Shown here: positions 18,912-40,119 of the stretch, in pieces | How positions within the stretch are numbered: position 1 is the first letter of the stretch | Layout: every line of letters starts with the position of its first letter | DNA from: Ilumatobacteraceae bacterium | Lineage (GTDB): Bacteria; Actinomycetota; Acidimicrobiia; Acidimicrobiales; Ilumatobacteraceae | NCBI GenBank assembly: GCA_024643255.1 | Contig: JAHENF010000097.1 | Span: forward strand, 30,798-94,797 | Length of the DNA stretch: 64,000 nt | Reading direction: 5' to 3' | Position numbers and translations under genes: made by a program | The notes under the pieces: generated by a model | Told to the model about the DNA's origin: nothing | Seen by the model: only the letters and a program-made list of their open reading frames with translations | Databases searched by the model: none

Positions 18912-19421
18912 TCACAGCAATCCACGTTCGTGATCGAGAAGCCAGGCTTTCGTGCCGATGCCGCCCGCGAATCCGGTGAGGGCTCCGTTCGCGCCGACCA
19001 CTCGGTGACAGGGCACGACGATCGAGATCGGATTGCGACCGTTCGCCGCGCCGACCGCTCGCGCCTTGCGGCGATCACCCATCCGTGAGGCTTGTTCGCC
19101 GTAGCTGACGGTGGTGCCGTACGGGATCGTTCGCAGCGCCATCCACGCCGACAGTTGGAAGTCCGTGCCGATCGGATCGAGCGGCAGGTCGAATTCTTCG
19201 CGCTCGCCGTCGAAGTACTCGCCGAGCTGGGTGATCGTCGCCTCGATCACCGGGTGCTCAGGCTCAGGAGACGCCGCCGGCAGTCGGACCCGGGCCGCAT
19301 CATCGTCAGGCCACAGGATCGCGCGTACTCCGCGGTGCGACGCAACGATCGTGATCGCGCCGACCGGCGTGTCCATGACGGCGGAGAACAGTTCGGCATC
19401 GGTGTTCGGTTCGTTGTTCAC
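18912..19421 (-). CDS. ogt: Methylated-DNA--[protein]-cysteine S-methyltransferase
   Basis: Active site 'ISIVVPCHRVVGANGALTGFAGG'; GTG start 19421. Confidence 0.95.
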   Translation of the reverse strand: MNNEPNTDAELFSAVMDTPVGAITIVASHRGVRAILWPDDDAARVRLPAASPEPEHPVIEATITQLGEYFDGEREEFDLPLDPIGTDFQLSAWMALRTIPYGTTVSYGEQASRMGDRRKARAVGAANGRNPISIVVPCHRVVGANGALTGFAGGIGTKAWLLDHERGLL

Positions 19422-21022
19422 GGTGTGTCCTTCCCAGGTGGATCGGAGGGCGACAGACTCGCCCAGAGATGGTGGACGGCGTATGACCTCCAGGGCGCCC
19501 AGTGGTCCGCCCGGTCCGCGCTGACGCCGACCGCCTCGAGGGCATGGCGGACGCCGAGGTCGGCATCGAGGAACATGTCCGGGTGGCCGAGGCCGCGCAT
19601 CACGACGTAATCGGCCGTCCACGGTCCGATGCCGCGCAGGCGCAGGAGTTGTTCGCGGGCGACGGAAGGATCGGCACCGACATGCAGTTCGACGGTTCCC
19701 TCCAGGACGGCATCGGCGAGACGGCGAATCGTGTCGCGGCGCGCGTGGGGCATGGAGAATGCGTCGTCGGGCGCCGACAGGAGTTGCTCGGGCCGGGGGA
19801 ACAACCGGGTGACGCCGGTGCCAGGCATCGGCGTCACCAGATCGATCGGGGAGCCGACCGCCTCGACGATCCGCCCGGCGACGGTTCGTGCACCGGTGAC
19901 CGACACCTGCTGGCCGATCACCGCACGCACCGCCGTCTCGAACGCATCGACGCTCGCCGGCGAACGACGACCGGGCACGAGCGTGACGAAGCGATGCATC
20001 ACAGGGTCACGTCCGAGCGCCTCGTCGACCGCCGTCGGGTCGGCATCGAGGTCGAGCAGCCGCCTGACGCGCTGGACTGCCGCCGCGAGGTCTCCCCACG
20101 ACCTCAACGCGAAGCGCGCCGCGACGTGGTCGGCGGCGGCGACGAGGCCGACCACACCGGCACCGCCGGGAAGATCGAGACTGCGCCGATAGGTCGTGCC
20201 GTCCCATGACTCGGTCCCGGCGATCGCCCGCTCACCGATGAACGTCATCACCGCGTCGGCCGCAAACGGTTGACGAACCGGCAGCCTCACCGTGATCGCC
20301 CCCGCGCCACCCACCCCCCCTGTCGGAAATTCGGAGCGGATGTAGCGCTGAGCGGGACGTTCGCTCCGAATTTCGGGGTGGGATGGGTCGGGCGAGTGGC
20401 GTCGGGGTTGGCGGGGTTGGCCTGGGTGGCGGGCGGATCGCAGGGCCGTCGGCGAGGTGGCGAAGACGGCGCGGATCGTGTCGTTGAACTGGCGCACGCT
20501 GCCGAAGCCGGCGGCGAACGCCACGTCGGTGAGCGACATCGTCGTCGTCTCGATGAGCAGCCGGGCAGTGTGTGCTCGCTGAGCCCTTGCGATGGCGAGC
20601 GCGCCGACGCCGAGCTCATCGGTGAGCACGCGATTGAGATGCCGTTCGCTGTAACCGAGCCGACGAGCGAGCCCCGGCACCCCGTCGCGCTCCACGAGGC
20701 CATCTGCGATCAGGCGCATCGCCCGAGCGACGACGTCCTGTCGGACATTCCACTCCGGAGACCCCGGCGACGCATCGGGTCGGCACCGCTTGCAGGCCCG
20801 GAAGCCGTGTTGCTGGGCGGCGGCAGCGGTCGGGAAGAAATCGACGTTGACTCGTTTCGGAGTGATCGCCGGACAGCTCGGTCGACAGTAGATGCCGGTC
20901 GTTCGCACGGCGGTGACGAACCAGCCGTCGAACCGTTGGTCGCGGCTCTGGACTGCGACGTAACAGTGGTCGGGATCGAGCGGCGGCACGAGACCATCAT
21001 GCCCGACCGACAAGCCTCCCAC
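19418..21022 (-). CDS. alkA: Ada-type Zn/AraC domain fused to AlkA DNA-3-methyladenine glycosylase II
   Basis: N-term 'TTGIYCRPSCPAITPKRVNVDFFPTAAAAQQHGFRACKRCRP' (Ada Zn domain), AraC HTH, AlkA HhH 'LLRLRGIGPWTADYVVMRGLGHPDMFLDADLGVRHAL'. Confidence 0.92.
   Translation of the reverse strand: MGGLSVGHDGLVPPLDPDHCYVAVQSRDQRFDGWFVTAVRTTGIYCRPSCPAITPKRVNVDFFPTAAAAQQHGFRACKRCRPDASPGSPEWNVRQDVVARAMRLIADGLVERDGVPGLARRLGYSERHLNRVLTDELGVGALAIARAQRAHTARLLIETTTMSLTDVAFAAGFGSVRQFNDTIRAVFATSPTALRSARHPGQPRQPRRHSPDPSHPEIRSERPAQRYIRSEFPTGGVGGAGAITVRLPVRQPFAADAVMTFIGERAIAGTESWDGTTYRRSLDLPGGAGVVGLVAAADHVAARFALRSWGDLAAAVQRVRRLLDLDADPTAVDEALGRDPVMHRFVTLVPGRRSPASVDAFETAVRAVIGQQVSVTGARTVAGRIVEAVGSPIDLVTPMPGTGVTRLFPRPEQLLSAPDDAFSMPHARRDTIRRLADAVLEGTVELHVGADPSVAREQLLRLRGIGPWTADYVVMRGLGHPDMFLDADLGVRHALEAVGVSADRADHWAPWRSYAVHHLWASLSPSDPPGKDTP
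19808..19838. repeat. REP-like hairpin (copy 2) inside alkA
   Basis: GGTGACGCCGGTGCCAGGCATCGGCGTCACC, encodes TPMPGTGVT in alkA; 28/31 identity to copy 1. Confidence 0.7.
20326..20374. repeat. 49-bp palindromic element, copy A (in-frame in alkA)
   Basis: GAAATTCGGAGCGGATGTAGCGCTGAGCGGGACGTTCGCTCCGAATTTC; 13-bp perfect terminal arms. Confidence 0.85.
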
Positions 21023-22333: not shown

Positions 22334-22382
22334 GAAATGTGCACAGATATGCCCGCTCAGCGGTCACACCCCTCCAGATTTC
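22334..22382. repeat. 49-bp palindromic element, degenerate copy D
   Basis: GAAATGTGCACAGATATGCCCGCTCAGCGGTCACACCCCTCCAGATTTC; reverse complement matches copy A at 31/49 positions without gaps, including CGCTGAGCGGG core and both ends. Confidence 0.55.
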
Positions 22383-22464
22383 GGGAGGTTCGGGACGTTC
22401 GGGACGTTCGGGAGGTTCGGGACGGGACGTTCGAGACGTTCGCGACGTTCGGGAGGTTCGCGGC
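22381..22464. repeat. Tandem repeat, 9-bp unit TCGGGA(C/G)GT
   Basis: About eight TCGGGASGT units, one interrupted by GACGT, in the MFS/transglutaminase gap. Confidence 0.85.
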
Positions 22465-29684: not shown

Positions 29685-31431
<1,747 letters not shown>

Positions 31432-31583
31432 TCGGCGACCCCTTCGTCGGCGCCGTCGCCGACATCCCCGATCGGGGCGCATCGTTGCGTCCTGCAGGTC
31501 GATCCCCGAGCCTCCTTTGCGTCCTCAGAGGGCTGGCTCGGGGATCGGCGCGTCCCCCGGTCCGATCGGCCCAACACGAACCC

Positions 31584-31632
31584 GAAATTCGGAGCGGATG
31601 TTGCGCTGAGCGCAACACCGCCTCCGAATTTG
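31584..31632. repeat. 49-bp palindromic element, copy B
   Basis: GAAATTCGGAGCGGATGTTGCGCTGAGCGCAACACCGCCTCCGAATTTG, intergenic between PII and second amt. Confidence 0.85.
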
Positions 31633-31681
31633 GGGTCAGGCATTTCCGATCCGGGTCGTCGGCATCTATGGTCTCCCGACC

Positions 31682-32884
31682 ATGAACTCCGGCGACACTG
31701 CATGGGTCCTGATCTCTGCCGCCCTGGTGCTCTTCATGACACCGGGCCTGGCCTTCTTCTACGGCGGCATGGTCCGCTCGAAGAACGTGCTGGGGATGCT
31801 CATGCAGAACTTCTTCGCGATCGGCATCGTGTCGATCCTGTGGGCGATGATCGGTTTCTCGATCGCGTTCGGCGGCACCGGGCCGCTGATCGGCAACACG
31901 GAGTTCGCATGGCTCGCCAACGTGGCGACGCTCGACGGAAACATTCCGGGTCTGGCGTTCGTCGCGTTCCAGATGATGTTCGCGGTGATCACCCCGGCAC
32001 TGATCACCGGAGCGACGGCCGACCGCCTCAAGTTCGGCGCCTACGCCCTCCTCATCGCGATCTGGTCGATCCTCGTCTATGCACCCGTTGCGCGGTGGGT
32101 GTTCAACCCCAACGGCTGGATCTACGAAATGGGTGCCCTCGACTTCGCCGGGGGCGCCGCGATCCACATCAACGCGGGGGTGGCGGCACTCGCCGTCGTC
32201 CTGGTGATCGGCAACCGGCGGGGCCACGGATCGGAACCGATGCCACCGCACAATCTGCCGTTCACCATGCTCGGCACGGGCATCTTGTGGTTCGGGTGGA
32301 TGGGCTTCAACGCCGGTTCGGCGCTCGCGGCCGACGGCGTCGCCGCGCAGGCGGTCGTCAACACCCAGCTCGCGGCGGCAGCAGGGATGCTCGGATGGCT
32401 CCTCGTCGAGCGGATCAAACGAGGCCACGCGACCACCCTGGGCGCGGCGTCCGGTGCGGTCGCCGGGCTGGTCGCGGTCACGCCGTGTGCCGGGTTCGTC
32501 GGAGGGGCATCACCGATGATCATCGGAGCAGTCGCCGGCGCGGGTTGCTTCGCCGCTCTCGGGATCAAGGAACGGATGGACTGGGACGACAGCCTCGACG
32601 TGATCGCCGTCCACCTCGTCGGAGGGATCATCGGCACACTGCTGCTGGGTCTCTTCGCCGACTCTGCGGTGAACGGCGACACCGATGGGCTGTTCTTCGG
32701 CGGTGGCGCGGAGTTGTTGAAGGATCAGTTCGTCGCTGCCGCCGCGGTCGGGGCGTTCTCGTTCACCGTGACCCTCGGGATTGCCGTCGTGATCAGCAAG
32801 ACGATGGGGCTGCGTGTCAGCGAGGACGAGGAACTGCGCGGCCTCGACCAGTCGCAGCATGCCGAGGCGGCCTACTCGGCCTGA
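31682..32884 (+). CDS. amt: Ammonium transporter (second copy)
   Basis: 'WVLISAALVLFMTPGLAFFYGGMVRSKNVLGMLMQNFFAIGIV' Amt signature. Confidence 0.96.
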   Translation: MNSGDTAWVLISAALVLFMTPGLAFFYGGMVRSKNVLGMLMQNFFAIGIVSILWAMIGFSIAFGGTGPLIGNTEFAWLANVATLDGNIPGLAFVAFQMMFAVITPALITGATADRLKFGAYALLIAIWSILVYAPVARWVFNPNGWIYEMGALDFAGGAAIHINAGVAALAVVLVIGNRRGHGSEPMPPHNLPFTMLGTGILWFGWMGFNAGSALAADGVAAQAVVNTQLAAAAGMLGWLLVERIKRGHATTLGAASGAVAGLVAVTPCAGFVGGASPMIIGAVAGAGCFAALGIKERMDWDDSLDVIAVHLVGGIIGTLLLGLFADSAVNGDTDGLFFGGGAELLKDQFVAAAAVGAFSFTVTLGIAVVISKTMGLRVSEDEELRGLDQSQHAEAAYSA

Positions 32885-32961
32885 CCGAGCGATCGGCAGC
32901 GCGACGGCGGCCGTGTGGCTGGCTGTGAAGTGACGGGCGACAGTCGCGTACAGTCGGGCCG

Positions 32962-34167
32962 ATGACCACCGTCGAGTCCCCACCCGAAACGCCCGCCAAG
33001 GCCGGACGATGGACAGCACAGTGGAAGGAGCTGTACGCCGAGGTCATCACGACCGGGCTCTGCACCGGATGCGCCGGATGTGTGGTGACGTGTCCGCACG
33101 ACGTGATCGGCTACGAGCACGAAGAGGGCAAGTACATCCCGTTCCACCTCGAAGAGGAGCTCGGGCTCGACAACTGCGTCCACGGATTCGGCGAAGGCGG
33201 CGGCTGCACTACCTGCACCCGGGCATGTCCCCGTTTCCAGGCGTGGGAGCCATCGGCCGACATGCACCTGTTCGGTCGGGTCCGTGAACCCGACGAGATG
33301 GCCGGCATCTGGCGCCAGCTCTACTTGACCCGGGCGAGCGAGGACATGGTCCACAAGATGGGCCAGGACGGCGGCCTCGTCTCGGCGATGCTGATCTGGC
33401 TGCGCGAGCACGACTACATCGACGCGGCGCTCGTCAGCGGGGTCGAGGACGATGACGCCTGGAAGGCGAAGCCTGCGGTCGTGGCCACCAAGGAGGAGAT
33501 CCTGGCCACCGCCGGCAGCCGCTACACGTATTGCGCAAACCCCCTGGCGCTCCCGGAAGCGAAGGAGAAGGGCTACGAACGCCTCGCGCTCGTCGGCATG
33601 GGATGCCAGACGTCGTCGCCGCCCACCATGTGGGACCGCAAGGCGGGCAAGGTGTCGAAGCCGTTCCTGTTCAACATCGGCCTGCTCTGTTCGAAGACAT
33701 TCGACGACGCGATCTTCACCGAACTGTTCGAGGCCAAGTACGGCCTCAAGAAGCAGGACATGGTGAAGATGAACATCAAGGGCGTCTTCCAGATCTGGAT
33801 GAAGGACGGCTCGTATCACGAGATCGACCTGAAGGAATGCCACGGCTGGACCCGCAAGGGCTGCACACACTGTCCCGACTTCGCCGCCGAGCACGCCGAC
33901 GTGTCGACCGGTGGCATCGGCGAGGACAACGACTGGACGCTCACGATCGTGCGCACCGAACTCGGCGAGGAGGTCATCGAGCGGATGATCGCCGACGGTT
34001 CGATCATCGCCAGGCCCGCCCAGACCGACGAGACAGCGATGCGCCTGCTGCGCCTGCTGTCGATCGTCAGCCGCCGACGCTGGCCGAACGACGCCGACCC
34101 TGCGCCGGCCGTCGGCGTGCCACCACCAAAGAAGAAGGCCGCTGCGCCGGCACCGACACCCGCCTGA
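32962..34167 (+). CDS. Coenzyme F420 hydrogenase/dehydrogenase beta subunit (FrhB)-like protein with ferredoxin-like N-terminus
   Basis: 'CTGCAGCVVTCPHDVIG...CTTCTRACPRF' Fe-S motifs, 'MGQDGGLVSAMLIWL', 'CHGWTRKGCTHCPDFAAEHADVSTGGIG'. Confidence 0.88.
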   Translation: MTTVESPPETPAKAGRWTAQWKELYAEVITTGLCTGCAGCVVTCPHDVIGYEHEEGKYIPFHLEEELGLDNCVHGFGEGGGCTTCTRACPRFQAWEPSADMHLFGRVREPDEMAGIWRQLYLTRASEDMVHKMGQDGGLVSAMLIWLREHDYIDAALVSGVEDDDAWKAKPAVVATKEEILATAGSRYTYCANPLALPEAKEKGYERLALVGMGCQTSSPPTMWDRKAGKVSKPFLFNIGLLCSKTFDDAIFTELFEAKYGLKKQDMVKMNIKGVFQIWMKDGSYHEIDLKECHGWTRKGCTHCPDFAAEHADVSTGGIGEDNDWTLTIVRTELGEEVIERMIADGSIIARPAQTDETAMRLLRLLSIVSRRRWPNDADPAPAVGVPPPKKKAAAPAPTPA

Positions 34168-34223
34168 GGCCCACCGTCATCCCGCAGCCGTCACACGGTG
34201 CCGGGTCAAACGTGACGTTGCTC

Positions 34224-34241
34224 GACGGCGCAGGCGCCGTC
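34224..34241. terminator. Hairpin between convergent genes
   Basis: GACGGCGcagGCGCCGTC-like inverted repeat, no T-tract. Confidence 0.4.
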
Positions 34242-34245
34242 GGGC

Positions 34246-34524
34246 TCAGCGGCAGGCGGCGAGATCGGCTTCGAACTTGGCGAGCTGTTCGTCGGCGGCC
34301 TTCGCCTTTTCGGCATTGCCCCCGACCGAATCGGCACCAAGCGTGTCGAGGTCGTAGTTGTCGATCACGTCGAGCATGCACTTCTGCATCTCGGGCTTGC
34401 CGGCGGTCTCGGTCTCCACGAGGTCCTTCGCGACTCGGGTGGGGCTCGGATCAGACGTGCATGCCGACAGTGCGAGCATGCCGACGAGAGCAACCGTGGC
34501 GAGCGAACGGAGAGAGGTCTTCAC
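34246..34524 (-). CDS. Small putative lipoprotein
   Basis: 92 aa; 'MKTSLRSLATVALVGMLALSACTSD' lipobox. Confidence 0.75.
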   Translation of the reverse strand: MKTSLRSLATVALVGMLALSACTSDPSPTRVAKDLVETETAGKPEMQKCMLDVIDNYDLDTLGADSVGGNAEKAKAADEQLAKFEADLAACR

Positions 34525-35219
34525 AGCGACTCAAGGCTACTGAGCACGACGGCGCGATGGAACACGGCGTCGAGCATCGATTCGGTGAGTCGTTTGGTGA
34601 ACGTGTTCTGCTGGCTCGGGTGGAACGAGCAGATCAGCACCGGGCCACCGCTGACCTGCACCTCCACACCATGACCGAACTTGGGCCGTGGTCTGACACC
34701 GAAGTGCGCGCAGGCCGCGGCGAAACCGAACTGACCGAGACACACGACCACGCGGGCATTGGTCAAGGCGGCGAACTCGCGTTGCAGGAAGGGGGCGCAC
34801 GCGTCGCGCTCGTCGGGGAGCGGCTTGTTCGCCGGCGGCGCGCACTTCACCGCCGCGGTCACCCACGCGTCGGTCAGTCGGAGTCCGTCGTCGACCGACA
34901 CCGACTCCGGCTGATTCGCCAGGCCGGCTCGATGCATCGCCCGGAACAGCCAGTCGCCGCTGCGATCGCCGGTGAACACGCGTCCGGTCCGGTTGGCGCC
35001 GTGCGCCGCCGGGGCCAGCCCGAGCACCACGATGCTCGCGTCCGGGTCGCCGAACCCGGGGATCGGCCTCCCCCAGTACGTGTCGTCGCGATAGGCCGCC
35101 CGCTTGTCGAGCGCAACCTGCTCCCGCCATTCGACGAGGCGCGGGCAGGCCCGACACTCGACCACGTCGCATTCGAGCCTGGCAAGCGGAGTCACGGCCC
35201 TCGACAGTAGGTTGGACAC
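34521..35219 (-). CDS. Uracil-DNA glycosylase (type 5 family)
   Basis: 'CRACPRLVEWREQVALDKRAAYRDDTYWGRPIPGFGDPDASIVVLGLAPAAHGANRTGRVFTGDRSGDWL', 'SFHPSQQNTFT'; GTG start 35219. Confidence 0.92.
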   Translation of the reverse strand: MSNLLSRAVTPLARLECDVVECRACPRLVEWREQVALDKRAAYRDDTYWGRPIPGFGDPDASIVVLGLAPAAHGANRTGRVFTGDRSGDWLFRAMHRAGLANQPESVSVDDGLRLTDAWVTAAVKCAPPANKPLPDERDACAPFLQREFAALTNARVVVCLGQFGFAAACAHFGVRPRPKFGHGVEVQVSGGPVLICSFHPSQQNTFTKRLTESMLDAVFHRAVVLSSLESL

Positions 35220-35224
35220 ACTCC

Positions 35225-35914
35225 ATGGCCACCACGAAGCGACCCTCTCCCCCACGCCCGGCGCCCAAGAAGTCGGCGAGTGCCCACCCGCCGTTCACGA
35301 CGGTTCTGCTCGTGCGACACGGGCAGACACCGACCACCGGCAAGGTGCTCCCCGGCCGGGCCAAGGGGCTGCATCTCGCCGACGAGGGCAGACGACAAGC
35401 CGACATCGCGGCCGCTCGCATCGCCGAGTTGAAACGCGTCGACGCCGTCTACAGTTCGCCGCTCGAGCGAGCGAAGGAGACCGCCGCACCGATCTCGGCC
35501 GCCCGCGGTCTGCGAACCCAGGTCGATCGCGGGTTGCTCGAATGCGACTTCGGCGACTGGACCGGCGCCGAACTGAAGAAGCTCATGAAGCTGCCCGAGT
35601 GGCAGACCGTGCAACGGGCACCGTCGATGTTCCGGTTCCCGAACGGCGAGAGCTTCACCGAGATGCAGACCCGGATGGTGTCCGCACTCGACCGCCTGCG
35701 CGCCGCTCACCCCGGTGGCACCATCGTGTGCGTCTCGCACGCCGACACGATCAAAGCCGCCGTCGCCCACGCCCTGGGCACCCACATCGACCTCTTCCAG
35801 CGCATCGTGATCAGCCCCGCCTCGGTCACGGCAATCACCTGGGGGCCGGGCGGTCCCGCGGTGCTCGCCGTCAACTCCACCGGCCGACCGCTGACCGATC
35901 TGCAACCGTCCTGA
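35225..35914 (+). CDS. Histidine phosphatase family protein (MSMEG_4193-type)
   Basis: 'TTVLLVRHGQTPTTGKVLPGR', 'SHADTIKAAVAHALG'. Confidence 0.9.
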   Translation: MATTKRPSPPRPAPKKSASAHPPFTTVLLVRHGQTPTTGKVLPGRAKGLHLADEGRRQADIAAARIAELKRVDAVYSSPLERAKETAAPISAARGLRTQVDRGLLECDFGDWTGAELKKLMKLPEWQTVQRAPSMFRFPNGESFTEMQTRMVSALDRLRAAHPGGTIVCVSHADTIKAAVAHALGTHIDLFQRIVISPASVTAITWGPGGPAVLAVNSTGRPLTDLQPS

Positions 35915-35916
35915 CC

Positions 35917-36420
35917 ATGAGCATTTTCTTCGAGTTCGACGAGGTGGCCGCATTCACGGTCGGCACGATCGGCCGACCGGGTGAGCGCACGTTCCTCCTG
36001 CAGGCGCGGGCGGACGAGCAGCGGGTCACGGTCAAGTGCGAGAAGCAGCAGACCGTGGCCATCGTGCAGTACCTGCGCAAGGTGCTCGCCGACCTCCCTC
36101 CGGCGGAGGATCGTCCGATGCCCGGAGCGCTCGAGCTACGCGATCCACTCGATGCAGCATTCGTCCTCGGACCGATCGGACTCGGCTACGACCGGGCGAG
36201 CGATCGGGTCCTGATCCAGCTCGAAGAGATCGGCGAGGTCGACGACGAGGGCGAGCCACTCGACGACGATCGTGGACACGTGCGCCTCTATCTGAGCAGA
36301 GGCCAGGCCGCCGCCTTCTGTGATCATGCCGACGGCATCGTCGAGGCGGGGAGACCTCCGTGCCAGTGGTGCAACCTTCCGATCGACCCCGACGGCCACG
36401 TCTGTCCCCGGATGAACTGA
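35917..36420 (+). CDS. DUF3090 family protein
   Basis: 'FTVGTIGRPGERTFLLQARADEQRVTVKCEKQQTVAI...GRPPCQWCNLPIDPDGHVCPRMN'. Confidence 0.9.
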   Translation: MSIFFEFDEVAAFTVGTIGRPGERTFLLQARADEQRVTVKCEKQQTVAIVQYLRKVLADLPPAEDRPMPGALELRDPLDAAFVLGPIGLGYDRASDRVLIQLEEIGEVDDEGEPLDDDRGHVRLYLSRGQAAAFCDHADGIVEAGRPPCQWCNLPIDPDGHVCPRMN

Positions 36421-36426
36421 CCGATC

Positions 36427-37257
36427 GTGGCCACGACCGAGCCTGACGACATCGACTCGTTCGACGACGACTTCGACGACGAAGATTTCGAGGACGAGGA
36501 TCTCGACGACGAGAACACACGCGGTGTCGAGCTGCGCGTGGACCACATCGACGACCCGATCGCCCATCTGCTGCGCGGCGACATCGAGGTCGAAGGCCGG
36601 ATGCCGTACAGCAGCAATGCGACCTTCCTCGTCCACGTCACGCACGACGGCAAGAGCCACCCGGCCATCTACAAGCCGACGCGTGGTGAGCGTCCCCTGT
36701 GGGACTTCGAACCCGGGCTGCATCGGCGCGAGGTGGCGACGTATCTCCTGAGCGAACACCTCCGCCTGCACGTCGTTCCGCCGACGGTGTTGCGCGACGG
36801 CCCGCTCGGTGAGGGCTCGGTCCAGTGGTTCGTCACGGCCGACCACAGCCAGCACTACTTCACCATCCACGAGGCTCACCCGGAGTTGCACGACGAACTC
36901 CGGTCGATGGCGCTGCTCGACATCCTCGCCAACAACACCGATCGCAAGAGTGGCCATGTGCTCCTGATCCCCGCCCGCGAGGGGCGCCCCGCGTCGGTGT
37001 GGGGCATCGACAATGGCCTGTGCTTCGCCGCCGACTACAAGCTGCGAACCGTGATCTGGGAGTTCGGTGACGAACCGATCGACGACGTTCTGCTCGAGCG
37101 GGTCGGTCGGCTGTGCGAGGGTGTGCCCTTGGAGATCGCCGCACTGTTGGCCGACGACGAGGTCGAGGCGCTGCAGGGACGCGCCGCGTGGTGCGTCACA
37201 CACCGTCGGTTCCCGACGGACCCGAGCGGTCGTCGCTATCCGTGGCCGTTGGTCTGA
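36427..37257 (+). CDS. SCO1664 family protein (kinase-like fold)
   Basis: 'PYSSNATFLVHVTHDGKSHPAIYKPTRGERPLWDFEPGLHRREVATYLLSE', 'DNTDRKSGH'-like 'NNTDRKSGHVLL'; GTG start; acidic N-terminus. Confidence 0.9.
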   Translation: MATTEPDDIDSFDDDFDDEDFEDEDLDDENTRGVELRVDHIDDPIAHLLRGDIEVEGRMPYSSNATFLVHVTHDGKSHPAIYKPTRGERPLWDFEPGLHRREVATYLLSEHLRLHVVPPTVLRDGPLGEGSVQWFVTADHSQHYFTIHEAHPELHDELRSMALLDILANNTDRKSGHVLLIPAREGRPASVWGIDNGLCFAADYKLRTVIWEFGDEPIDDVLLERVGRLCEGVPLEIAALLADDEVEALQGRAAWCVTHRRFPTDPSGRRYPWPLV

Positions 37258-37259
37258 GG

Positions 37260-38255
37260 ATGGACGACCACGCCGAGGATTCGAGGCTCGACGAGCTGAT
37301 TCATCGGGCTGACCTCGACGAGCTCGTCCGTCTGATCGACGACCGATGCGCCGCGCGCGACTGGGACGGCGTGCTGCGAATTCGCGATCGTTGCCGGCAC
37401 GCGGTGGCGACCGGGCGTCAGCTGTGGCCGGCGGCGACGCTCTCCGAGTTCAGGCTGGCACTGCTCGCCGGCGCGACCTTCGTCGCCGCGGTCCTCGACG
37501 AGTCCGACGGGTTGTCGGGACGATTCACCATCGGCCCGCTCACCGAAGTCGCCGCGCAGCACCACACGTGGGACGATCTCGCCCCGGTGCTCGATCGAGG
37601 ACCACGGGCAGCGTTCGTCGCGCACGAGCGTGTGCTGCGCGGTGATGTGATCGACGACGACGATCTCCCGGCCGTGCTCGATTTGCCACTCGCGCTCCAG
37701 TCCTGGGAGCCGGACTACGCGCTGGCGACCTACACCGATGAGGGGGCCGAGTTCCCGATGCCATCGCTTCCGGAGCGGTGGTACGACGTCGAGCCGGTTC
37801 CGGACGAGATACTCGACGACGACGTCGAGTACGCCGTGCAACAGCTCGTGGAGCCGTGGACGACCAGCTCGAACGGTCAGGTCGACGTCGTGTGCGTCGA
37901 CGGTGATGTCGCCGGGGCGCTCGGCGCCCTGGGCCTCCGCCGCGCTCGCGTGGTCGATCTCGAGCCCGCCACCGCCATCGCGTGGCTCGCGTGGGCGGGG
38001 GCAAGCGGTGGGGCTCACGGTCGACGGCGTGGTGCTGCGGCGGGGAGATTCGGCGCCTGGTGGACACTGGCAGCGCTGGGCGATCTGACCGACGAGTGGC
38101 CGATCGATCCCGATGAACTCGGTGCGCTGGCGAACGAGCTTCGCTGGTACCGCTGGGATGCGCACGAGCCCGCGATGGGCTGGAATCTTCAGATCGCCGT
38201 CGAGGACCCGGGCGAGTCCGTCTCCTGGGCGATCCTCGCCCGCGACGCCACCTGA
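37260..38255 (+). CDS. Hypothetical protein
   Basis: Uninterrupted 331 aa ORF, coding-like; overlaps nothing on its strand. Confidence 0.75.
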   Translation: MDDHAEDSRLDELIHRADLDELVRLIDDRCAARDWDGVLRIRDRCRHAVATGRQLWPAATLSEFRLALLAGATFVAAVLDESDGLSGRFTIGPLTEVAAQHHTWDDLAPVLDRGPRAAFVAHERVLRGDVIDDDDLPAVLDLPLALQSWEPDYALATYTDEGAEFPMPSLPERWYDVEPVPDEILDDDVEYAVQQLVEPWTTSSNGQVDVVCVDGDVAGALGALGLRRARVVDLEPATAIAWLAWAGASGGAHGRRRGAAAGRFGAWWTLAALGDLTDEWPIDPDELGALANELRWYRWDAHEPAMGWNLQIAVEDPGESVSWAILARDAT

Positions 38256-38282
38256 AAACCCCAAGCACGCCCTGAAAACCCC

Positions 38283-38331
38283 GAAATTCGGAGCCGATGT
38301 TGCGCCCAGCGCAACATTCGCTCCGAATTTC
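38283..38331. repeat. 49-bp palindromic element, copy C
   Basis: GAAATTCGGAGCCGATGTTGCGCCCAGCGCAACATTCGCTCCGAATTTC; 21/23 paired arms with 3-nt loop; between convergent genes. Confidence 0.88.
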
Positions 38332-38371
38332 GGATTGAGAACGATCTCGGGTTCGGGGTGGAGGGGTGCGG

Positions 38372-39340
38372 TCAGCCGCGGGCGGCGAGTGCTTCGAGCA
38401 ACTGCGGCAGGACCTTGTGCACGTCACCGACGATGCCGAGGTCGGCGACACCGAAGATCGGCGCCTCCTTGTCCTTGTTGATCGCGATGATGTTCTTCGA
38501 GCCCTTCATGCCCACCATGTGCTGGGTCGCACCGGAGATGCCGGCAGCGATGTAGACCGTCGGCTTGACGACCTTGCCGGTCTGGCCGACCTGGTAGCTG
38601 TAGGGAACCCAGCCGGCGTCGACGATCGCGCGGGACGCACCCGGCGCACCGTGCAGTGCCTTGGCCAGCGATTCGATCATCGCGTACTTGTCGGCCTCGC
38701 CGAGACCACGGCCACCGGCGACCACGACCGCTGCTTCATCGAGCTTGGGACCCGAGGTCTCCTCGACGTGCACGGCCGTCACGGTCGCACCTGCGGCCGA
38801 ACCCAGATCGGGAACGGGAGCGGCCACGACCTCACCGGCAGCACCGGCGCCGGGTTCGGCGACGAAGCTCTTCGGACGGAAGGCAGCGAGGAATGGACGC
38901 TCGCCCGTGAACGTCGAGTTGACGAGCTTGGATCCGCCGAACACCGGCGTCTGCACCGTGACGGCATCGCCTTCGACGGTGATGCTCGTCGAGTTGGTCA
39001 GCACGGTGCGATCGAGCTTGACCGACAGCCGCGCCATCACGTCGCGCCCTTCGTAGCTCTGCGGGAACATGATCAAGTCGGGCGAGTCGCCGCCGTTGAT
39101 CACGGCCTGCATCGCGGCCGAGACGGCCACGCCGGGCAGGGCCCCGCCGAGATCGCCCGTTGCGTAGACCTTGGCTGCGCCGTGGTCGCCGAGCGCTGCG
39201 GCCACCGCAGCGCCATCACCGGCGATGAAGGCCGAGACGTTGCCGCCGAGGCTGCGGGCCTTGGTGAGCAGTTCGAGCGTGCCCGTCGTCGGCGCGCCGT
39301 CGGCGGCCTGTGCGAACACCCAGATGTTGTCGATTCCCAT
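38372..39340 (-). CDS. etfA: Electron transfer flavoprotein alpha subunit
   Basis: '[73 protein letters not shown]'. Confidence 0.96.
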
Positions 39341-39351
39341 GATCGGTCTCC

Positions 39352-40119
39352 TCAGATGACTTTCAGGTTGTCGAGGAACTCGACGATCTTGTTGAACGAT
39401 TCGCCATCGTCTTCGATGACCTCGCCGGCCTCGCGAGCCGGAGCATCCTCGACGGACGTGATCTGCTGCGCCCACGAGACGGACTCGACGCCGAGGTCGG
39501 CAGCCGTGACGGTGTCGACCGGCTTCGACTTCGCGGCCATGATGCCCTTGAAGCTCGGGTAGCGGGGCTCGACGACGCCGGCGGTCACCGACACGACGGC
39601 GGGAAGCGGGCACGTGACCTCGTCGTAGCCGGCCTCGGTCTGGCGATCGACCTTCAGCGTGCCGTCGGCGATCTCGACCGTCTTGGCGAACGTGATCGAC
39701 GGGAGCCCGAGGACCTCGGCGAGCTGCTCGGGCACCGTGCCGGTGTAGCCGTCGGACGACTCGGTGCCCGCGATGATCAGATCGACATCGCCGAGCCGCT
39801 TCGTGGCGGCCGCGAGCACCTTGGCGGTGGTCAGCGCATCGGCGCCGGCGAGCGACGGATCGCTCACGAGCACCGCTTTGGCTGCACCCATCGCGAGGGC
39901 GGTGCGCAGGCCCGATACTTCGTCGTTCGGGGCCATCGACACGAGGCTGACCTCGCCGCCGCCGGCCGCCGTGACGAGCTGCAACGCCATCTCGACGCCG
40001 TAACTGTCGGACTCGTCGAGGATGAGTTTGCCGTCACGCTTGAGCGTGTTGGTGGAGGGATCCAGCTCGCCCGGCAGGGCCGGGTCCGGGATCTGCTTGA
40101 CGCAGACGATCACGTTCAT
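39352..40119 (-). CDS. etfB: Electron transfer flavoprotein beta subunit
   Basis: '[13 protein letters not shown]...[14 protein letters not shown]', '[23 protein letters not shown]'. Confidence 0.96.

Follow-up and report, generated by a model that had tools for sequence, protein, structure and literature searches.

A dispersed family of 49-bp palindromes with species-specific arms on a common scaffold in an Ilumatobacteraceae bacterium

REPs are short palindromes found mainly between convergent or tandem genes near their 3′ ends, with some copies in DNA-repair and helicase genes (PMC3733652). No dedicated transposase is known for the CGTC REPs (PMC3733652). Rickettsia palindromic elements (RPEs) have in-frame copies inside protein genes (PMC3733652), and the class of REP at orthologous RAYTs has been seen to switch between relatives, which is called "orthoswitch" (PMC3686654). 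The literature searched, which covered few subscription journals, gave no account of repeats of this kind from Acidimicrobiia. Here, I analyzed a family of 49-bp palindromes present in an Ilumatobacteraceae genome, starting from a 64-kb window (the whole stretch of DNA under study). Like the GTAG and CGTC superfamilies of REPs, the element is palindromic, dispersed, and mainly extragenic near gene 3′ ends, and some of its copies lie in DNA-repair and helicase genes. It differs from them in its length of 49 bp (REPs are 20–40 bp), its almost full dyad symmetry, and its outward G/T-rich tails. It also differs in that the arm body varies between species while the length, ends, and centre stay constant. 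The GTAG/CGTC tetranucleotide tag was not found at the ends, which are GAAAT and ATTTC with CCC and GGG outside. On the features tested, the family falls outside the GTAG/CGTC superfamilies and the RAYT-REP pairs.

As listed in Table 1, the window has four members of the family. The first-pass annotation had described copies B and C as intergenic 49-bp palindromes with a 3-nt centre and conserved ends, and their positions, length, and centre were all confirmed. The one inaccurate detail is the end of copy B, which is ...CCTCCGAATTTG (G) and not GCTCCGAATTTC (C). The word intergenic fits B and C but not copy A, which belongs to a DNA-repair gene. The half-site pattern matches six times in the window and never in 100 dinucleotide shuffles. 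Thus, a chance origin of the window palindromes is excluded. The folding energies as single-stranded DNA are −25.5 (B), −27.2 (C), and −19.3 (A) kcal/mol, with z values of −9.8, −9.4, and −5.4, respectively. A search of Rfam over positions 31400–38500 gave weak matches only, all below the gathering scores. In the G001 genome, the gap orthologous to that of copy B lacks the element and carries a hairpin with a T-run after it, and the copy C gap of the sister species G002 has a palindrome with the same scaffold and other arms.

Table 1. Copies of the 49-bp palindrome and associated features in the 64-kb window.
Feature	Position	Strand	Context or basis
Copy A, 49-bp palindrome	20326..20374		In frame inside the Ada-AlkA gene
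Ada-AlkA fusion, 534 aa, host gene of copy A	19418..21022	-	Pfam: HTH_18 at aa 118-196, AlkA_N at aa 244-359
Copy D, decayed 49-bp member, 16/23 pairs	22334..22382		49-bp palindrome scan; overlooked in the first-pass annotation
G/T-rich tail of copy D, tandem ~9-bp CGGGACGTT units	22382..22460		
Left flank of copy B, within the C-rich side typical of most copies	31520..31583		Family-wide skew
Copy B, 49-bp palindrome	31584..31632		Between gene ending at 31431 (+) and ammonium transporter gene 31682-32884 (+)
Copy C, 49-bp palindrome	38283..38331		Between convergent genes: DUF6183 gene ending at 38255 (+) and ETF alpha gene 38372-39613 (-)
Right flank of copy C, within the G-rich side typical of most copies	38332..38390		Family-wide skew

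Does the family extend beyond the window? A covariance model found about 58 sites in the genome, whose assembly is 91.6% complete and in 100 contigs. A pattern of the ends only gave 57 matches per strand, and the reversed pattern gave none in the whole genome. In 0.73 Mb of the genome, 42 of the 44 pairs of GAAATTC and GAATTTC lying 25–99 bp apart span exactly 49 bp. The unit is a 49-bp dyad composed of CCC-GAAAT, a 14-bp species-specific arm, GCGC-3nt-GCGC, the complementary arm, and ATTTC-GGG; the commonest centre triplets, TGA and TCA, are one triplet read from opposite strands. The arms covary. Across 38 copies, 11 pairs of the 22-pair helix are changed on both sides, and the covariation score is above all 500 shuffles and all slid registers; since these copies were picked by their ends, the invariant outer pairs are uninformative. 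Double-changed cells in the arms number 47 (25.8 in shuffles). In 53 copies, the complementarity at the 11 variable arm positions is 7.32 within a copy versus 6.58 ± 0.17 with arms swapped between copies, and seven copies pair fully at all 22 positions. The structured REP/MITE-like element that had been proposed from three copies is thus upheld: the copies are scattered, lie mostly outside genes, covary in their arms, differ in presence between sister species, and in some cases are inserted in genes. The antisense peptide KFGADVALSATxAPNFG noticed at each site does recur, but it arises incidentally when one open frame of the palindrome is translated. It was dropped as such, lying outside real genes; the truly coding copies (A and two others) are read in two different frames. 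Tandem and in-gene copies have 19 G·U and 22 A·C mismatches on the sense strand, showing no G·U preference in a comparison of low power, which leaves selection for the hairpin as transcribed from one strand unsupported.

Is the element shared by related species? In the 80 nearest genomes, the covariance model of the own family gave two marginal matches only, both at one place. The scaffold pattern GAAAT-N14-GCGCTNAGCGC-N14-ATTTC was then sought in 49 genomes with at most two mismatches, the 49-bp length outside the own genome being built into the search patterns. It was found in 56 copies in the own genome, 12 in G002, 8 in G001, and 5 in G018; two of the other 45 genomes have one weak match each, and the reversed pattern has none in all 49. 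The arms are GAAATTCGGAGCGAACGTTGCGC in the own genome, GAAATATGCCTGGATTCATGCGC in G002, GAAATTTGCTGTGATTCGCGCGC in G001, and GAAATACCGGGGAGAACGTGCGC in G018, with the pairing kept throughout. Palindromes of 49 bp with GAAATTCGG ends and other arms are present in the Actinomycetota MAG SZAS-2 (six copies) and in an Acidimicrobiia MAG (one copy), while single matches in unrelated phyla were set aside as expected by chance. Most G001 copies are doublets, 72 bp from start to start (L221, L223, L224, and L225), and the 23-bp spacer of the doublets is G-rich and then C-rich. The own genome has relics with G002-like arms (L042:1640 and L065:1803). Such relics, together with sister families with different arms, are as expected of successive subfamilies. 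The conserved ends and centre, the symmetry, and the lack of a strand preference would also suit a dyad bound by a nucleoid-associated or chromosome-organising protein, the copies being selected as binding sites. This is highly improbable, since complementarity is kept in an arm body that differs between species, as would be expected more of a hairpin than of a fixed recognition sequence; the copies are also unevenly spaced on the contigs, and two or three lie inside genes.

Six of about 19 loci in G001 and G002 are at or beside the position of an own copy (three in G002, including the copy C locus, and three in G001, two of which are anchored on one side only in the fragmented sister genomes). 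The binomial probability of six shared positions is 1e-6 to 2e-3, for 18 loci and a 2–8% chance per locus. The remaining sister loci are unshared, and G001 or G014 lacks an element at several of the own positions; in relatives, divergence at the empty sites is too great for junctions or any target-site duplication to be defined. The shared positions are either ancestral elements with replaced arms or repeated hits on the same gaps. This resembles the "orthoswitch" in that the repeats of related genomes are of one kind but differ in sequence and have been replaced in part (PMC3686654). It is unlike the "orthoswitch" in that no RAYT was found here and the sites of the repeats are where the switching is seen, the 49-bp scaffold staying the same. 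Such paired orthologous sites with different arms make the spread and switching of transposase-less REPs and RPEs directly testable.

A RAYT/TnpA_REP partner had been suggested in the first-pass annotation. If the element were an ordinary REP mobilised by a RAYT (an IS200/IS605-like Y1 transposase), the RAYT would have been lost from the genome or be missing in the assembly. RAYT-like Y1_Tnp genes with flanking palindromes do exist in relatives (L192 in G002, L193 in G001, L194 and L195 in G009), and a change of REP class between relatives has precedent (PMC3686654). However, the profile search for RAYT (PF01797) had no match in the own genome (91.6% complete), although it is the genome with the most copies. 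Moreover, the palindromes flanking the relatives' genes have GGGGTCAGACCCC or GGTGCCAGGCACC cores and are not the 49-bp element, whose ends are without the GTAG/CGTC tag. Mobilisation by a RAYT is therefore quite unlikely, and the suggested partner was abandoned. The RAYT-like genes and the GGGGTCAGACCCC and GGTGCCAGGCACC palindromes of this bacterial family look like a REP-RAYT system. Palindromes of the GGGGTCAGACCCC type are also dispersed in the own genome, where no RAYT was found (L039:10359, L045:14137, L048:17295, and L050:14962). Two other carriers were considered and rejected. As for an autonomous element bounded by two copies, the nine genes in close-pair intervals are housekeeping genes with no transposase among them in the regions examined; as for viral carriage, viral contigs have no exact match. 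A search for solitary element ends gave near matches only in the DNA examined.

It was found that three copies, missed as such in the first-pass annotation, lie in frame in conserved proteins (Ada-AlkA, a helicase, and a beta-galactosidase), all at domain boundaries. Copy A falls between HTH_18 and AlkA_N of Ada-AlkA, and the linker is longer than in G001 and G002. The copy in the DEAD-box helicase lies just before DUF3516; the protein has 47 extra residues here, while the G001 protein is contiguous. The third copy is between LacZ_4 and Bgal_small_N of the beta-galactosidase, where G014 has a linker of similar length and other sequence. Since the linker is not longer than in G014, the beta-galactosidase case is no plain insertion. 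A fourth in-gene call (C56) lies upstream of the conserved domain and probably reflects a wrong start. Like RPEs, the in-frame copies are in genes that stay open, and Ada-AlkA and the helicase have extra residues compared with the sister species. Unlike RPEs, the element is mostly intergenic, lacks the CGTC tag of RPE-4 and RPE-6, and has only three convincing in-gene copies. This may be a case, from an actinobacterial family that has been little studied, of in-frame insertion into a helicase and a DNA-repair protein.

The gene context was analyzed with gene calls from a home-made codon-usage caller trained on the DNA examined. In total, 18 copies are in convergent gaps, 23 in tandem gaps, 6 in divergent gaps, and 4 inside gene calls. 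Convergent gaps are enriched for the element (Fisher p = 6e-5 versus tandem and 0.009 versus divergent gaps, with gap statistics drawn from element-bearing regions). With the element masked, other hairpins (score ≥8) were found in 1 of 17 convergent gaps with the element (6%) versus 13 of 27 without it (48%; p = 0.003). Thus, in convergent gaps the element appears to replace the usual hairpin. The same contrast is not significant in tandem or divergent gaps, and copy B, which sits downstream of a separate 13-bp stem, is an exception to the replacement. A purely selfish REP/MITE-like repeat, biased to gene 3′ ends by purging elsewhere and with a hairpin devoid of a cellular role, would fit the occurrence of copies in all contexts, divergent gaps and genes among them, and the lack of a sense-strand G·U preference; dispersal and purifying selection suffice for all of this. 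It is nevertheless an unlikely account, since other hairpins are missing from the convergent gaps bearing the element and the position is partly conserved between species.

The terminator function raised in the first-pass annotation thus gains indirect support from the hairpin replacement in convergent gaps, but RNA-strand-specific selection was not seen. I infer that the element may terminate transcripts or stabilise their 3′ ends. It is similar to bidirectional intrinsic terminators in that a strong, symmetric hairpin starts A-rich and ends U-rich, lies between convergent genes, and excludes other hairpins there. It differs from them in that the 3′ side of the stem ends in AATTT followed by CGGG, giving UUU only and no U-tract directly after the stem, and in being one dispersed sequence family that is also present in divergent gaps and genes. 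At L065:8388-8434, an ABC transporter gene call ends within a copy, the last residues being RNSD before the stop; therefore, the element supplies the stop codon of that call.

Outward G/T-rich DNA, often tandemly repeated and missed in the first-pass annotation, spans about 80 bp on each side of the element. The left flanks are C/A-rich and the right flanks G/T-rich whichever way the neighboring genes point, and this holds for copies in divergent gaps and within genes too. The outward GC skew is 0.55 at 0–10 bp, 0.49 at 10–20, 0.43 at 20–40, 0.28 at 40–60, 0.21 at 60–80, 0.08 at 80–100, and about 0 beyond, versus at most 0.16 beside other hairpins of the same genome. Outward skew accompanies the element in G002, G001, G018, and the SZAS-2 MAG as well. 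Copy-specific tandem repeats, such as CGGGTT × 8.7 and CCAAGAA × 5.9, were found in 28 of the 108 flanks, compared with 13 of 226 gap segments used as controls and 6 of 108 flanks after shuffling. Third codon positions at the gene 3′ ends facing the element carry the same bias (0.53 versus 0.27 in controls). Local strand-asymmetric mutation was not retained as an explanation of the skew: a shift is seen at synonymous sites, but inserted tails, gene-end bias, and mutation are inseparable. Over 60 nt, the strand running toward the element is 48% C and 20% G, being C-rich and G-poor as a Rho-type site would be.

Taken together, the element is probably a REP/RPE-like non-autonomous mobile palindrome that is retained at the 3′ ends of genes, where it would serve as a bidirectional terminator or 3′-end hairpin. 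I infer that the palindrome is mobile and that a mobiliser exists. A trans-acting system would have copied or moved the 49-bp unit in successive subfamily waves, and insertions would be accepted between genes and, in rare cases, in frame in the linkers that join protein domains. Copies at gene 3′ ends, above all convergent ones, would be retained because a strong hairpin formed from either strand could end or protect both incoming transcripts, and the element hairpin would take over from the usual terminator hairpin. Counted in favor of this mobile-palindrome reading are the fixed length, the covariation, the presence or absence between species, the shared scaffold, the convergent enrichment, the hairpin replacement, and the C-rich approach strand. 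Counted against it or its terminator part are the lack of a mobiliser among the genes found, the lack of a U-tract and of a G·U preference, the six divergent-gap copies, copy B after another hairpin, and the beta-galactosidase linker. It may be a case of a mobile hairpin taking over termination between convergent genes. What is conserved in the family is the length, ends, centre, and skewed tails, while the arm body is free. More speculatively, and with considerable doubt, the family might represent a class of mobile palindromes set by geometry and not by sequence, with a length of 49, fixed ends and centre, and arms overwritten in each species, sometimes at orthologous positions. Its members might be moved by a hairpin-measuring enzyme that also leaves the outward G/T-rich tandem tails, and be domesticated as terminators of convergent genes.

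Two minor observations were made. Near-identical copies with their tails lie at the ends of contigs C26 and C89 (L042:9966 and L069:65) and differ in their tandem-repeat counts; they represent either two variants of a single locus or a recent duplication. G002 also has near-perfect long palindromes of other families (GTTCTCGTGAACTATTGCCGACG... and ACGCGTGAACTTGTTGCGCAC...), for example at L164:8728, L157:5022, and L154:5002.
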